Source of the DNA: a virus
Strand: one strand, 5' to 3'
Virus record (IMG/VR): IMGVR_UViG_3300032731_000405
Location: 1-42,979 of that record
Length of the DNA: 42,979 bases
Both the position numbers and the translations under genes were made by a program. The notes under the pieces are model-generated. The model was given only the letters and a program-made list of their open reading frames with translations. It was not told the DNA's origin and searched no databases. This document shows, one piece after another, positions 4,577 through 42,863 of the stretch. Each line of letters begins with the position of its first letter. Within the stretch, counting starts at the first letter, position 1.

Positions 4577-4968
4577 CAATGAACGTGGATATCATCCGAA
4601 GAAGTGGAAACCTCGAATACAGAACCGGGACCCACTCGAAGAAGTGTATGAAGTGCGGCCAGCTTAAAGACATATCGCTATTTTACAAAGCAAAAAAGAG
4701 TGTTGACGGCAGACAGTCGTATTGCAAGAGTTGCCAAAGTGAGGCGAATCGGACCAGCCAGAAGAAAAGGTCTAAAAACAAAAAATTGAGTGCAGCCATG
4801 AAAGCGTCATGGGTGAAAAGGCGGAAGAAAACAGGCAAAGAGACTCTGAGCGTCGGAATGACCAACATGGAATGGATCACGGAACTGAAAGGGCTGTTGA
4901 GCCGCAAGCCCGACACAATTATTCTCTCGACTTCTAACGGAAATATTGCTTTAACTTTGACGATCTAG
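4573..4968 (+). CDS. Zinc-finger protein, 131 aa
   Basis: Residues 20-60 carry CMKCGQLKDISLFYKAK and, after a basic turn, YCKSCQSEANR, a four-cysteine finger seen in phage HNH-associated and DNA-binding proteins (the KxCxxCxxxKxxxxFY type). The centre is very basic (KKRSKNKKL, VKRRKKTGKE). The end (DTIILSTSNGNIALTLTI) is a beta-like tail. No complete HNH motif is visible, so a nucleic-acid-binding role is more likely than a nuclease. It starts four bases inside the previous gene. Confidence 0.65.
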   Translation: MTMNVDIIRRSGNLEYRTGTHSKKCMKCGQLKDISLFYKAKKSVDGRQSYCKSCQSEANRTSQKKRSKNKKLSAAMKASWVKRRKKTGKETLSVGMTNMEWITELKGLLSRKPDTIILSTSNGNIALTLTI

Positions 4969-9171: not shown

Positions 9172-9651
9172 ATGGAATCAAGAGTAGAAAAAAGAGAAAA
9201 AGCAAGGGAAAAGACCGAAAGAGCAAGGGTTAAGAAGGAATTGGAAAGGGATAAATTGAACGGGAAAGGGGGCTTTCGTGTAGGTGCTGGCCGACCCAAA
9301 GGCTCTCATGGCTTACTGACCCGATCCCTCAGATCGAAGATCAAGGCTGGCCGACTGATTAAGTTCCTCCAGGCTTTAGCGGACGGTGATATCGAAGGCT
9401 CTACGGTTACAGAGCGCAAAGACGCGGCCAGCATACTGTTAAGGAAGGTTATGCCAGACGTGAACAAGACCGAGATCGAGTCAGGGGTGACTTTCAAGCC
9501 TGTAGAGATCGCGATCAAGGGCGACAGGGCACCAGCAGAGGTCAAGGCGGTTCAGAACGCGGAGCAGGGCAAGGCTCCTGCACCTGCGGGCGTACAGGCT
9601 CCAGATCAGGATGCGGCCCCGGCCCCAGTTAATCCAGAGGTTTTAAACTAA
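9172..9651 (+). CDS. Terminase small subunit-like protein, 159 aa
   Basis: The motif GGFRVGAGRPKGSHGLL near residues 28-45 is the Gly-rich start seen in many phage small terminases and related DNA-recognition proteins, followed by a helical region (IKAGRLIKFLQALADGDIEG, VTERKDAASILLRKVMPDVN). The N-terminus is a highly charged helix, and the C-terminus is an Ala/Pro-rich linker. In packaging, the small subunit recognises the viral DNA start site and controls the large subunit. Position upstream of the large subunit supports the call. The ribosome site is weak (agagga, rather far). Confidence 0.7.
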   Translation: MESRVEKREKAREKTERARVKKELERDKLNGKGGFRVGAGRPKGSHGLLTRSLRSKIKAGRLIKFLQALADGDIEGSTVTERKDAASILLRKVMPDVNKTEIESGVTFKPVEIAIKGDRAPAEVKAVQNAEQGKAPAPAGVQAPDQDAAPAPVNPEVLN

Positions 9652-9652
9652 A

Positions 9653-9892
9653 GGTACGTACTATGATAGAATACACAAAGAAAGAGGCTAACAAGCATAT
9701 AAGTCGGATACTTAGAGAGGCTGAGGTCCAGGATATTTTGATAACAGAGCGAGGGATGGGGGTAATTCTGCTCTCAAAGTACGTACAAGGGGGTAAAAAG
9801 GTACGTACAACTGAGGATAAGGTACGTACAACTGAGGATAAGGTACGTACAACTGAGGATAAGGTACGTACAACTGAGGATAAGGTACGTAC
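9653..9892. repeat. Seven GTACGTAC palindromes with 21-base tandem repeat
   Basis: The palindrome GTACGTAC occurs at 9654-9661, 9779-9786, 9801-9808, 9822-9829, 9843-9850, 9864-9871 and 9885-9892. The last five are in 21-base tandem units starting at 9800, 9821, 9842, 9863 and 9884 (the last shortened). The 21-base period is two helix turns, so all sites face the same side. The first site overlaps the ribosome region of the gene at 9663. The array lies between the terminase genes, making a packaging-start, operator or centromere-like role plausible. Confidence 0.9.
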
Positions 9893-9974
9893 AGAGGATG
9901 AGAAGGTTGCAACCTTTCTTGAGAAGGTTACAACAGATGATCGGCCATTCAGGTCGTTTCCGAAGCCGGGGTAA
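9663..9974 (+). CDS. Phd/YefM-like DNA-binding protein with 7-residue repeats
   Basis: Residues 1-41 (MIEYTKKEANKHISRILREA, EVQDILITERGMGVILLSKY) resemble the N-terminal fold of Phd/YefM antitoxins: helix, then strand-turn-strand ending in a V/I-L-L-S motif. Such domains dimerise and bind palindromic operators; Phd itself binds GTGTACAC-type palindromes. Residues 46-79 are five copies of KVRTTED (the last shortened), encoded by the GTACGTAC repeats. No toxin gene follows; the next gene is the large terminase, 2 bases after the stop. So this may be a stand-alone, self-binding DNA protein. The fold assignment is by eye. Confidence 0.6.
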   Translation: MIEYTKKEANKHISRILREAEVQDILITERGMGVILLSKYVQGGKKVRTTEDKVRTTEDKVRTTEDKVRTTEDKVRTEDEKVATFLEKVTTDDRPFRSFPKPG

Positions 9975-9976
9975 TC

Positions 9977-11368
9977 ATGGATCCAACCCAACCGAATAGA
10001 ATCGAATTAGAGCGACATCAGGCCGACTTTATCCAGGCTAAGGAGCAATATACAGCGTTATTTGGGGGCATTGGTAACGGTAAGACGTTCGCCGCGTGCT
10101 TGAAGGGGATCCAGCTCTCGGCGCGTTACCCTAACAATCTTGGTTTAGTTGGCCGGTTCACCTATCCAGAGCTGAGGGATTCGACCCGTGAGGAGTACCT
10201 GCACGTCTTGGGGATGCTCTATCCCCCGAAGGCTTACAAGATCAACAAAACCGAGGGATCTGTTACGTTATGGAACAAGAGCGCGACGATCTTCAGGCAT
10301 CTTGAGGACTCCAGGAAGCTACTTGGCCCCAACTTGGGGTGGTTCTATATCGATCAGGCGGAAGAAGTGGATGAGGACGTATTCAGCACGTTACAGGGGC
10401 GGCTACGTCGTCCGAGGATCGGGGAGTTGAGCGGCATGATAACCGGCAACCCTCACGGTCATGATTGGGTCTATCACAAGTTCGGGATGCAGTACGGTTG
10501 GAACGATCAGAACCGGCAGACCAATTACGCGCACAGTTCTAATTACCGGATGATAACAGCCCCGACCCATTCGAACGCTGACAACCTTCCCCCTAACTAT
10601 GTCAGCCAGCTCCAGGAGTCTTACAGTAAAGAGTGGTTTAACCGCTACGTTTTAGGGTCTTGGGATGGATGGGCGGGGATGATCTTTGACGTGAGCAAGA
10701 TCGGCAGTTACGACAGGCTCCCTGATATTGAGATGATATTCACCGGTTGTGATCCAGCGATCTCGAAGGAGAAGGAGGCCTGCGACACGGCTTTTAGTAC
10801 GATAGGGGTAGGCAAGGACGGGTATTACTATGATCTTGAGACGATAGCGGAGCATTGGACGTTTCTCGAGACATTGGAGCAGATCCGGGCGATTCAGGAG
10901 CGATTCAAGGGTTACAAGGTACGGCATTATTTAGGGGTAGAGAACACGGCTTATCAGGAGAGTTTGCGGGAGGCGGCAGAGCGAGACTTCCCGGAGTTGG
11001 AAGTGCATGGCATAGCGGCTGATCGAGACAAGTTTAGGAGAGCGCGGTCGGTATCTCATATAATTCAACAGGGGTTATTCAGGAGTAATAATAAGGAGTT
11101 GTTGGCAGATATGAGTGCATTTGATCCGGATGCGAGGGGCAAGTTAAGGAAGGATCGAATTGACGCGTTGGTTCATGCTTTGCATATGGTACAGTTATAC
11201 GCGCCGATAAACCGGCCTATGGTGACGGTACAGGATCAGTTTAAGGGGATGGACAGTCATCAGGCATGGTTCAAGCAGACGCAGGATTACGCTCGTCACC
11301 AGTTAGAGGGCGTTGATAACGTGGACGAATACAGTCCATCAACAGGGGGCGACCCCGACTACTATTAG
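9977..11368 (+). CDS. terL: Terminase large subunit
   Basis: Walker A GGIGNGKT at residues 30-37, Walker B-like GWFYIDQAEE at 121-130, and the ITGNP motif near 155 form the packaging ATPase. The RNase H-like nuclease part shows FTGCDPAISK with Asp259, VEN with Glu322 and DRIDALVHA with Asp396. The 463-residue length is normal for TerL. It pumps DNA into the prohead through the portal and cuts the concatemer. The C-terminal tail is acidic (GVDNVDEYSPSTGGDPDYY), probably for portal contact. Confidence 0.95.
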   Translation: MDPTQPNRIELERHQADFIQAKEQYTALFGGIGNGKTFAACLKGIQLSARYPNNLGLVGRFTYPELRDSTREEYLHVLGMLYPPKAYKINKTEGSVTLWNKSATIFRHLEDSRKLLGPNLGWFYIDQAEEVDEDVFSTLQGRLRRPRIGELSGMITGNPHGHDWVYHKFGMQYGWNDQNRQTNYAHSSNYRMITAPTHSNADNLPPNYVSQLQESYSKEWFNRYVLGSWDGWAGMIFDVSKIGSYDRLPDIEMIFTGCDPAISKEKEACDTAFSTIGVGKDGYYYDLETIAEHWTFLETLEQIRAIQERFKGYKVRHYLGVENTAYQESLREAAERDFPELEVHGIAADRDKFRRARSVSHIIQQGLFRSNNKELLADMSAFDPDARGKLRKDRIDALVHALHMVQLYAPINRPMVTVQDQFKGMDSHQAWFKQTQDYARHQLEGVDNVDEYSPSTGGDPDYY

Positions 11369-24394: not shown

Positions 24395-25003
24395 TCAAGT
24401 AACCTTACACCTTTTGGAATGTTTGGGTGCAGTTATGGCGATATTAATAGGCCATCCACTTCCGAATCTCCACAAAAGGCTGCTAAAGGTTGTATGACAT
24501 CTTTTATCTTTAGACCATTCTCTTATTGTCTTTTTTTCTCCAAAAGCATTATAAAATATATTACTTCTCATATTGTTCGATTGAACAACATTTGTAGCCC
24601 ATCTACAATTTTCAGGGGAATATTCTTTATTATTATTTATTCTGTCAAGTGTGAGAGGTCTGTTGTTTCTAAATTTTTTGGCCCAATGGTAAAAAGATTC
24701 AAAATTATTGTTCCATTCAATACATACTTTAATTCCTCTGCCCCCATAGCGTTTATAGTTAGGGTGATTTTTATTGTTACATCTTTGTTTCATTCCATCC
24801 CAAATATTATAAAGTCTAGTGGCACTTTTGCCATGTTTAAAATTAGTGTTTTTCGTATATTTGAGAGATTGTTTATAACAATGAAAACTACAAAAAGTTT
24901 TTCCATTTGGTTTATTTGTGTTTCCAAACCATCGGCCCAATTCCATTTTAGGTGGTTTTTTAAAAATCTTTTTACAATGTTTGCATTTTTTAATGTATTC
25001 CAT
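24395..25003 (-). CDS. Homing-endonuclease-like protein with zinc finger, 202 aa
   Basis: Residues 7-43 form a Cys-rich finger (CKHCKK, CSFHC). Residues 63-137 (RLYNIWDGMKQRCNNKNHPN, YGGRGIKVCIEW, LDRINNNKEYSPENCRWAT) match the phage homing endonuclease/AP2-HNH-type family. A related gene is at 40041. The - strand orientation is opposite to all surrounding genes, and the DNA is AT-richer by eye. A consensus promoter at 25010-25038 would start transcription at the ATG, so translation is probably leaderless. This is a mobile gene that cuts DNA at an empty site to spread itself. Catalytic residues are inferred. Confidence 0.82.
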   Translation of the reverse strand: MEYIKKCKHCKKIFKKPPKMELGRWFGNTNKPNGKTFCSFHCYKQSLKYTKNTNFKHGKSATRLYNIWDGMKQRCNNKNHPNYKRYGGRGIKVCIEWNNNFESFYHWAKKFRNNRPLTLDRINNNKEYSPENCRWATNVVQSNNMRSNIFYNAFGEKKTIREWSKDKRCHTTFSSLLWRFGSGWPINIAITAPKHSKRCKVT

Positions 25004-40040: not shown

Positions 40041-40535
40041 ATGAGAACAGACCTAATTCAAAACAGATATGCCCTTAAACATGGTCTGACCCCAAGAGGT
40101 AAACCGCCAAGATTATATAATATATGGAGAGGAATGAAAACCAGATGCTCTAATAAAAATGGTTCTGGTTATAAATATTATGGCGCGAGGGGTATCAAGC
40201 TATGTAAAAGATGGCACGCATTTGAGGTTTTTTATGAGGATTTGAACGAGGCTTATCAAACACATTGTAAAGAATATGGAATAAAAAATACCACATTAGA
40301 CCGGCTGAACAACAACGGAGACTATTCACAAAAAAATTGTCGGTGGGCAACATGGACTCAACAAAACAACAATTCCAGAATGTGTCGTAACTTAACCTAC
40401 GATGGGCTGACATTAAATATAACACAATGGGCGAAAAGGGTGAATTTGAAATATGTTACTCTCTACAGAAGATTATTTATTATGAAATGGTCTATTGAGG
40501 AGGCTCTCACCACTCCAGTAAGGAGGACGATGTGA
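40041..40535 (+). CDS. Homing-endonuclease-like protein, 164 aa
   Basis: RLYNIWRGMKTRCSNKNGSG (residues 24-43), YGARGIKLCKRW (47-58), LDRLNNNGDYSQKNCRWAT (86-104) are the same blocks seen in the - strand endonuclease at 24395, without its N-terminal finger. This is a free-standing nuclease that probably spreads between phages. The ATG follows GAGGGAAATAGCC. It is locally AT-richer by eye and inserted between small early genes and the RecB-family nuclease, whose GTG lies inside its last codons. Confidence 0.8.
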   Translation: MRTDLIQNRYALKHGLTPRGKPPRLYNIWRGMKTRCSNKNGSGYKYYGARGIKLCKRWHAFEVFYEDLNEAYQTHCKEYGIKNTTLDRLNNNGDYSQKNCRWATWTQQNNNSRMCRNLTYDGLTLNITQWAKRVNLKYVTLYRRLFIMKWSIEEALTTPVRRTM

Positions 40536-42578: not shown

Positions 42579-42863
42579 ATGAAAGACTGGAAGAAAGAGT
42601 TAATAGAAAAAAGCTATGGAACGGTATCTCCATTTGATGGCAAAGATACGGTGTTGTTAGCATGGGAGATAGATAAACTCTATGAATATATTCAACAACT
42701 ACTCAAAGAACAGATAGCTAAGTATCAACGACGAGAGGACGAACATTGTAGGCAGTTAGATGAGTATAAGAAAGTAGTAGAGGCAGCTAAAAAGTATGTG
42801 GAAGTATGGACAAAAGAAACTTATTGGGGACTACACTACGTACTCAAAGAACTGGAGGAGTAG
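42579..42863 (+). CDS. Coiled-coil modular protein, 94 aa
   Basis: ATG at 42579 behind GGAGGAGTAGAG. It contains the 142-base segment also seen at the left window end (WEIDKLYEYIQQLLKEQIAK and on), then YKKVVEAAKKYVEVWTKETY shared in part with the previous gene, and LKELEE at the end. It is a mosaic of repeated modules. Function unknown. Confidence 0.65.
   Translation: MKDWKKELIEKSYGTVSPFDGKDTVLLAWEIDKLYEYIQQLLKEQIAKYQRREDEHCRQLDEYKKVVEAAKKYVEVWTKETYWGLHYVLKELEE
42622..42763. repeat. Right copy of the 142-base end repeat
   Basis: Matches 1-142 with one difference (t at 42719, g at 98). It lies inside the gene at 42579-42863. See the left copy for interpretation. Confidence 0.9.

Follow-up and report, generated by a model that had tools for sequence, protein, structure and literature searches.

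Palindromes in 21-bp Phase at a Phd/YefM-Like Gene in a Phage Terminase Operon: A Possible Autoregulatory Operator Array

Palindromes with a GTAC core (TGTACA) are recognized by the N-terminal domain of the antitoxins YefM and Axe (PMC7730913, PMC4803016), and the Phd protein of E. faecalis binds a 10-bp palindrome (PMC13034048). In this report, we describe a phage locus in IMG/VR record IMGVR_UViG_3300032731_000405 (positions 1 to 42,979; this whole stretch of 42,979 nt is called the window below), in which a gene for a 103-residue protein with a Phd/YefM-like N-terminus lies between a small-terminase-like (TerS-like) gene and the gene for the terminase large subunit (TerL). Seven copies of the palindrome GTACGTAC are found within this gene and its leader. 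The locus shares with the type II toxin–antitoxin systems YefM-YoeB, Axe-Txe, and Phd-Doc a Phd/YefM-like N-terminal domain and GTAC-core palindromes at the gene itself (PMC4803016, PMC7730913). It differs from them in having no toxin gene, seven sites 21-22 bp apart rather than two at 12 bp, sites within the gene and operon rather than over a recognizable promoter, and a C-terminus composed of heptad repeats.

Two other kinds of described systems are comparable. The pac site of P22-type phages and the cosB site of lambda also lie at the TerS gene or next to it, but without a palindromic tandem array that has an extra protein of its own. In lambda O, with the origin iterons inside the O gene, a gene for a DNA-binding protein likewise carries probable sites in its linker codons; the gene described here encodes a different fold, is not beside replication genes, and belongs to a phage with an O-like gene of its own that contains repeats at 2069-2136. 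The reading that we favor, with confidence that is about even, is that the predicted product is a solitary (toxin-less) Phd/YefM-type DNA-binding protein and that the palindromes are its autoregulatory operator array within the terminase operon.

The palindrome array and its register

Perfect copies of GTACGTAC start at positions 9654, 9779, 9801, 9822, 9843, 9864, and 9885 (n = 7), all within 9654-9892, and no other perfect copy was found in the window. The expectation from dinucleotide shuffles was 0.07 copies, and 0 of 100 shuffles reached 7. Copies with one mismatch elsewhere in the window occur at the level of chance. The elements of the locus are as follows.

9654..9661, no strand assigned: palindrome 1, GTACGTAC, between the Shine-Dalgarno sequence and the start codon
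9663..9974, + strand: 103-residue Phd/YefM-like protein with C-terminal heptad repeats (open reading frame; Pfam PF02604 at residues 4-35; hidden Markov model against shuffles)
9663..9788, + strand: Phd/YefM-like N-terminal segment, residues 1-42 (alignment to Phd; hidden Markov model)
9779..9786, no strand assigned: palindrome 2, GTACGTAC, in a Tyr-Val reading frame
9798..9893, + strand: 21-bp tandem repeat AAGGTACGTACAACTGAGGAT with palindromes 3-7 (9801, 9822, 9843, 9864, 9885), encoding KVRTTED
9903..9934, + strand: two degenerate in-phase units, GTTGCAAC and GTTACAAC, forming an inverted repeat (sequence; RNA fold z = -2.4)

Using Tandem Repeats Finder, the tandem at 9798-9893 was determined to have a period of 21 bp and 4.6 copies at 100% identity, and five of the seven palindromes are thus in strict 21-bp phase within the open reading frame at 9663-9974. 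Palindrome 2 is 22 bp upstream of the first tandem palindrome. Palindrome 1 is noncoding and lies within the 11-bp gap between the stop codon of the upstream gene and the ATG, at a distance of exactly 147 bp from palindrome 3, the first of the tandem copies (7 × 21 bp, 14.0 turns). An earlier note on this DNA had described seven 8-base palindromes in about 240 bases, five of them in perfect 21-base phase inside the gene and one at the ribosome region of the same gene, together with the encoding of a 7-residue KVRTTED linker by the repeats, and all of these descriptions were borne out.

The palindrome at 9779 is read as Lys-Tyr-Val-Gln, and those of the tandem are read as Lys-Val-Arg-Thr. Since the leader and two different reading frames hold the same palindrome, selection on the peptide does not explain the sites. 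The palindrome arose at least three times: in the leader, in the Tyr-Val frame, and in the KVRTTED tandem. Because the tandem copies are 100% identical, the five sites within it count as approximately one event with a single duplication history. The evidential weight is carried by palindromes 1 and 2, which are outside the tandem, one in the leader and the other in a different frame. When the same protein was recoded with the codon usage of the phage (20,000 simulations), at least two copies of GTACGTAC were obtained in 1.4% of the simulations and six were never obtained.

The 21-bp register was found by inspection to continue past the tandem in the degenerate units AAGGTTGCAACC (9903) and AAGGTTACAAC (9924), which encode the heptads KVATFLE and KVTTDDR, respectively. 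We also asked whether the degenerate unit GTTGCAAC shows compensatory palindromicity but discounted this, as about one-fourth of random Val-Ala-Thr codon choices give the same result. A near-perfect inverted repeat, GTTGCAACCTTTC-TTGA-GAAGGTTACAAC, is found at 9906-9934, at the end of the Phd-like gene and just before TerL, with an RNA fold z of -2.4.

The palindromes could also act in the mRNA, where the self-complementary GUACGUAC copies would pair with one another and pairing of copy 1 with copy 2 would hide the translation start. Folding gave z = -5.2 for the 131-nt array and z = -2.9 for the 381-nt region, and site 1 is paired with site 2 in the minimum-energy structure. However, a good fold is to be expected of every tandem palindrome by construction, RNA pairing needs no exact 21-bp phasing, no Rfam match was found, and no covariation was available. 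We consider control at the level of RNA to be very unlikely.

The Phd/YefM-like protein and the proposed operators

The 103-residue protein consists of an N-terminal segment of about 45 residues that is followed by seven heptads. The top Pfam family is PhdYeFM_antitox (PF02604), with E = 0.0055, and a search of the whole record with the PF02604 model gave this locus as the sole match. A hidden Markov model (HMM) built from 24 Phd/YefM proteins of several genomes scored the first 45 residues at 12.3 bits; shuffling these residues 5,000 times gave at most 10.0 bits. The alignment to Phd runs start to start (YTKKEANKHISRILREAEV.QDILITERG), with the Phd/YefM N-terminal motif in register with the start of the protein. 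The assignment of the N-terminus to Phd/YefM is weak but reproducible from these comparisons. The earlier note gave GTGTACAC as the operator of P1 Phd.

The best inference from the sequence is that the Phd-like protein binds the array at its own gene. Dimers of the protein would bind the GTACGTAC palindromes in its own leader and in the codons that specify its repeat linker. With a spacing of 21 bp, two turns of the helix, the sites would lie on one helix face, and the bound dimers could assemble cooperatively into a nucleoprotein array in the region between TerS and TerL. Such binding would act as negative feedback or as a roadblock, and it would limit the expression of the protein itself, of TerL, and of later genes in the terminase operon.

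In Phd/YefM antitoxins, the toxin-binding segment occupies the position that is taken by the repeats in the 103-residue protein. This bears on another explanation, in which the protein acts like an antitoxin as a decoy for a host toxin and its linker expanded incidentally into the 21-bp tandem repeats. The antitoxin-type N-terminus and the lack of a cognate toxin gene nearby would fit a decoy, and the expansion appears to be recent because the tandem copies are identical. The repeats, however, replace the very C-terminal segment that binds the toxin in Phd/YefM, and the palindrome is also present in two contexts outside the tandem. A decoy is highly doubtful on these grounds.

A number of observations weigh against the autoregulatory operator array. 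The match to PF02604 is confined to residues 4-35 and, at 16.9 bits, does not reach the gathering cutoff of 29.8. AlphaFold predicted an all-helix structure from the single sequence (predicted local distance difference test score, pLDDT, of 72.6), and from three sequences, including two distant relatives, it gave a low-confidence model with a pLDDT of 57 and a helix at residues 6-19. The Phd-like N-terminus that the earlier note had proposed is accordingly supported at the level of sequence, with a Pfam match below the cutoff and an HMM score above all 5,000 shuffles, but not by structure, the two AlphaFold models being too weak to bear on the fold. Known YefM and Axe sites, with the core TGTACA, are 12 bp apart from center to center and not 21 bp (PMC4803016, PMC7730913), and no promoter-like site overlaps the array. 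No homologues of the Phd-like gene were found in IMG/VR, phages, or plasmids apart from one Deinococcus Phd with E = 4.

The distribution of the motif adds to these points. Arrays of GTACGTAC with a 21-bp period are found in multiple copies per genome in metagenome-assembled genomes (MAGs) of three phyla, from Planctomycetaceae, Verrucomicrobiales, and Bacteroidales. PF02604 has no match in the array-rich Planctomycetaceae genome and a single one, below the cutoff, in the Verrucomicrobiales genome. No Phd gene was found near the GTACGTAC pairs in the fetched loci, and GTACGTAC arrays adjoin other types of protein as well, which argues against a motif specific to Phd. The motif alone does not identify its binder.

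These same arrays raise an alternative in which a widespread 21-bp palindromic repeat, selfish or neutral, happened to land in the phage and the binder, if there is one, is a host protein. The multicopy arrays in the MAGs of the three groups speak for it, and a spacing of 21 is over-represented among the fetched GTACGTAC pairs. The phage, however, has no second array, and site 1 is located precisely in the leader of a gene for a DNA-binding protein. We regard this origin as improbable. Dispersed 21-bp units centered on GTACGTAC were observed in L239 and L278 (Planctomycetaceae), L291 (Verrucomicrobiales), L289 (Bacteroidales), and other contigs of the same MAGs; the arrays of L239 and L291 are each followed by a gene of unknown function, and these two genes are homologous (33% identity). 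Six viral loci (L087, L091, L099, L174, L184, and L186) have repeated GTACGTAC (GTGTACGTACAC where read) spaced by 23 and 34/35 bp, and these sites are possibly repressor operators. Nothing relevant to GTACGTAC arrays or to VRT repeats was found in the literature searched.

In favor of the operator array, by analogy, GTACGTAC arrays inside genes can be selected as DNA, because rare codons are kept while the spacers vary in three copies of an actinobacterial gene (L182, L212, and L324). Each has four GTACGTAC with a 21-bp period that encode VRT heptads, and the palindromes are constant whereas the spacers are variable. The valine codon is GTA at 12 of 12 sites and at 1 of 31 positions elsewhere in those genes, and the arginine codon is CGT at 12 of 12 sites and at 6 of 87 elsewhere; the genes are homologous, and the 12 site codons are not 12 independent events. 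Their product differs from the Phd-like protein in that it resembles a replication initiator of the helix-turn-helix (HTH) type, with weak family matches only. With L325 included, arrays with periods of 21-23 bp were observed inside actinobacterial and phage genes for HTH, initiator-like proteins, and these arrays are candidate in-gene replication origins. The phage itself has a replication protein O gene at 1768-2544 (Pfam E = 6e-25), followed by a DnaB-like helicase gene. The 15-bp repeat TAGCACAGAAGCCAC is present in 4.5 copies at 2069-2136 within the protein O gene, which likely holds an origin in the style of lambda O.

The terminase genes and comparable arrays

The Phd-like gene is directly flanked by the following genes.

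9172..9651, + strand: TerS-like gene, 159 residues, with a GRPKGS motif (position before TerL; weak PHROG TerS match, E = 0.067)
9977..11368, + strand: TerL (Pfam Terminase_3, Terminase_6N, and 6C, above the cutoff)

The order is TerS-like, Phd-like, TerL, the genes being separated by 11 and 2 bp, and the TerS-like gene ends 2 bp before palindrome 1. From the Pfam matches, the TerL assignment is secure; that of TerS is positional, with weak profile support. With these two genes as the direct flanks, no toxin gene is adjacent, as the earlier note had stated. Two further suggestions of that note, a packaging start and a segregation system, found no direct support. No ParA-type ATPase was recognized by eye among the open reading frames of at least 100 residues, a set on which no profile search was made, and a partition centromere was set aside on this basis. 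A P22-like headful assignment was also dropped, as the portals closest to that of the phage, at about 25% identity, are from actinophages.

The array could serve as an element for the initiation of packaging, similar to pac or cos, with either TerS or, as a packaging accessory, the Phd-like protein binding to it. It is located between the TerS-like and TerL genes, the pac site of P22 lies within its TerS gene (PMC9611059), and an independent pair of phages, L160 and L329, has an array in a similar place. The TerL relatives in IMG/VR, which are 37-52% identical over the matched part, carry TerS-like genes at the same place, but no extra gene before TerL was found in those inspected. Among the relatives with at least 300 bp upstream, at only 37-52% identity, no 8-bp palindrome is present in three or more copies upstream of TerL. 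The sites instead track the Phd-like gene, including its leader, and in L160 and L329 they have changed along with the neighboring small gene. A role in packaging initiation is unlikely.

When IMG/VR was scanned for GTACGTAC in groups of three at close spacing, six stretches were obtained. L160 has seven TGTACGTACA, mostly 21-22 bp apart (4664-4846), directly upstream of the genes for a 102-residue protein and an intein-containing TerL. Its relative L329 has three TGTATATACA at aligned positions (1082-1166), upstream of a small protein and TerL. About 85 bp of upstream flank are the same in both, and the central CG is changed to TA from L160 to L329 at 3 of 3 aligned sites. The first small protein differs at residues 6, 8, and 9 (KRLNLRV in L329 versus KILIMRV in L160), and 11 of the 15 changed codons are nonsynonymous. 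By eye, these residues look like part of the DNA-contacting strand of a ribbon-helix-helix (RHH) protein; Pfam and PHROGs gave nothing significant for the small proteins. The L329 gene at 129-560, upstream of the array, is TerS-like by eye and has no profile match. A second cluster of short repeats (GTCCGAC/GTCGGAC) was observed in L329 between the first small gene, which starts at 1185, and TerL, which starts at 1788. No description of an array, an RHH-looking protein, and TerL in this arrangement was found in the literature searched.

L160 and L329 share with the Phd-like locus palindromes of the GTACGTAC type, mostly 21-22 bp apart, and a small protein directly upstream of TerL. They differ in the protein, which looks like RHH by eye, in the position of the array upstream of the gene and not inside it, and in the TGTACGTACA or TGTATATACA sites. 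The protein is of a different type and the pair of phages is unrelated; the likeness is an analogy and not a homology. By this analogy, which speaks for the operator array, such arrays at the terminase can evolve as a set, and probably in company with the neighboring protein. A broader proposal, which we consider a long shot, is that unrelated phage lineages have convergently placed an antitoxin-type DNA-binding protein and a two-turn palindrome array at the terminase as an undescribed nucleoprotein switch for the timing or licensing of packaging, with the operators in linker codons in the phage described here.

Other features of the window lie outside the terminase operon. A direct repeat of 142 bp (99.3% identity) is present at 1-142 and 42622-42763, short of the right contig end, and may reflect either the duplication of part of a gene or the assembly. 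The open reading frames at 24395-25003 (- strand) and 40041-40535 (+ strand) look related (RLYNIWxGMKxRC...LDRxNNNxxYSxxNCRWAT) and by eye resemble homing-type endonuclease genes. Neither the capsid protein nor the TerS-like protein had relatives in IMG/VR.

If the palindromes are indeed the autoregulatory operators of the Phd-like protein, then an antitoxin-type repressor without a toxin would have been recruited to control a phage packaging operon, with its operators in its own coding repeats. The apparent joint change of the sites and the putative recognition strand in L160 and L329 makes this idea directly testable in vitro. The same pair raises the prospect that operator arrays at terminase genes are a control point that recurs and has been overlooked.
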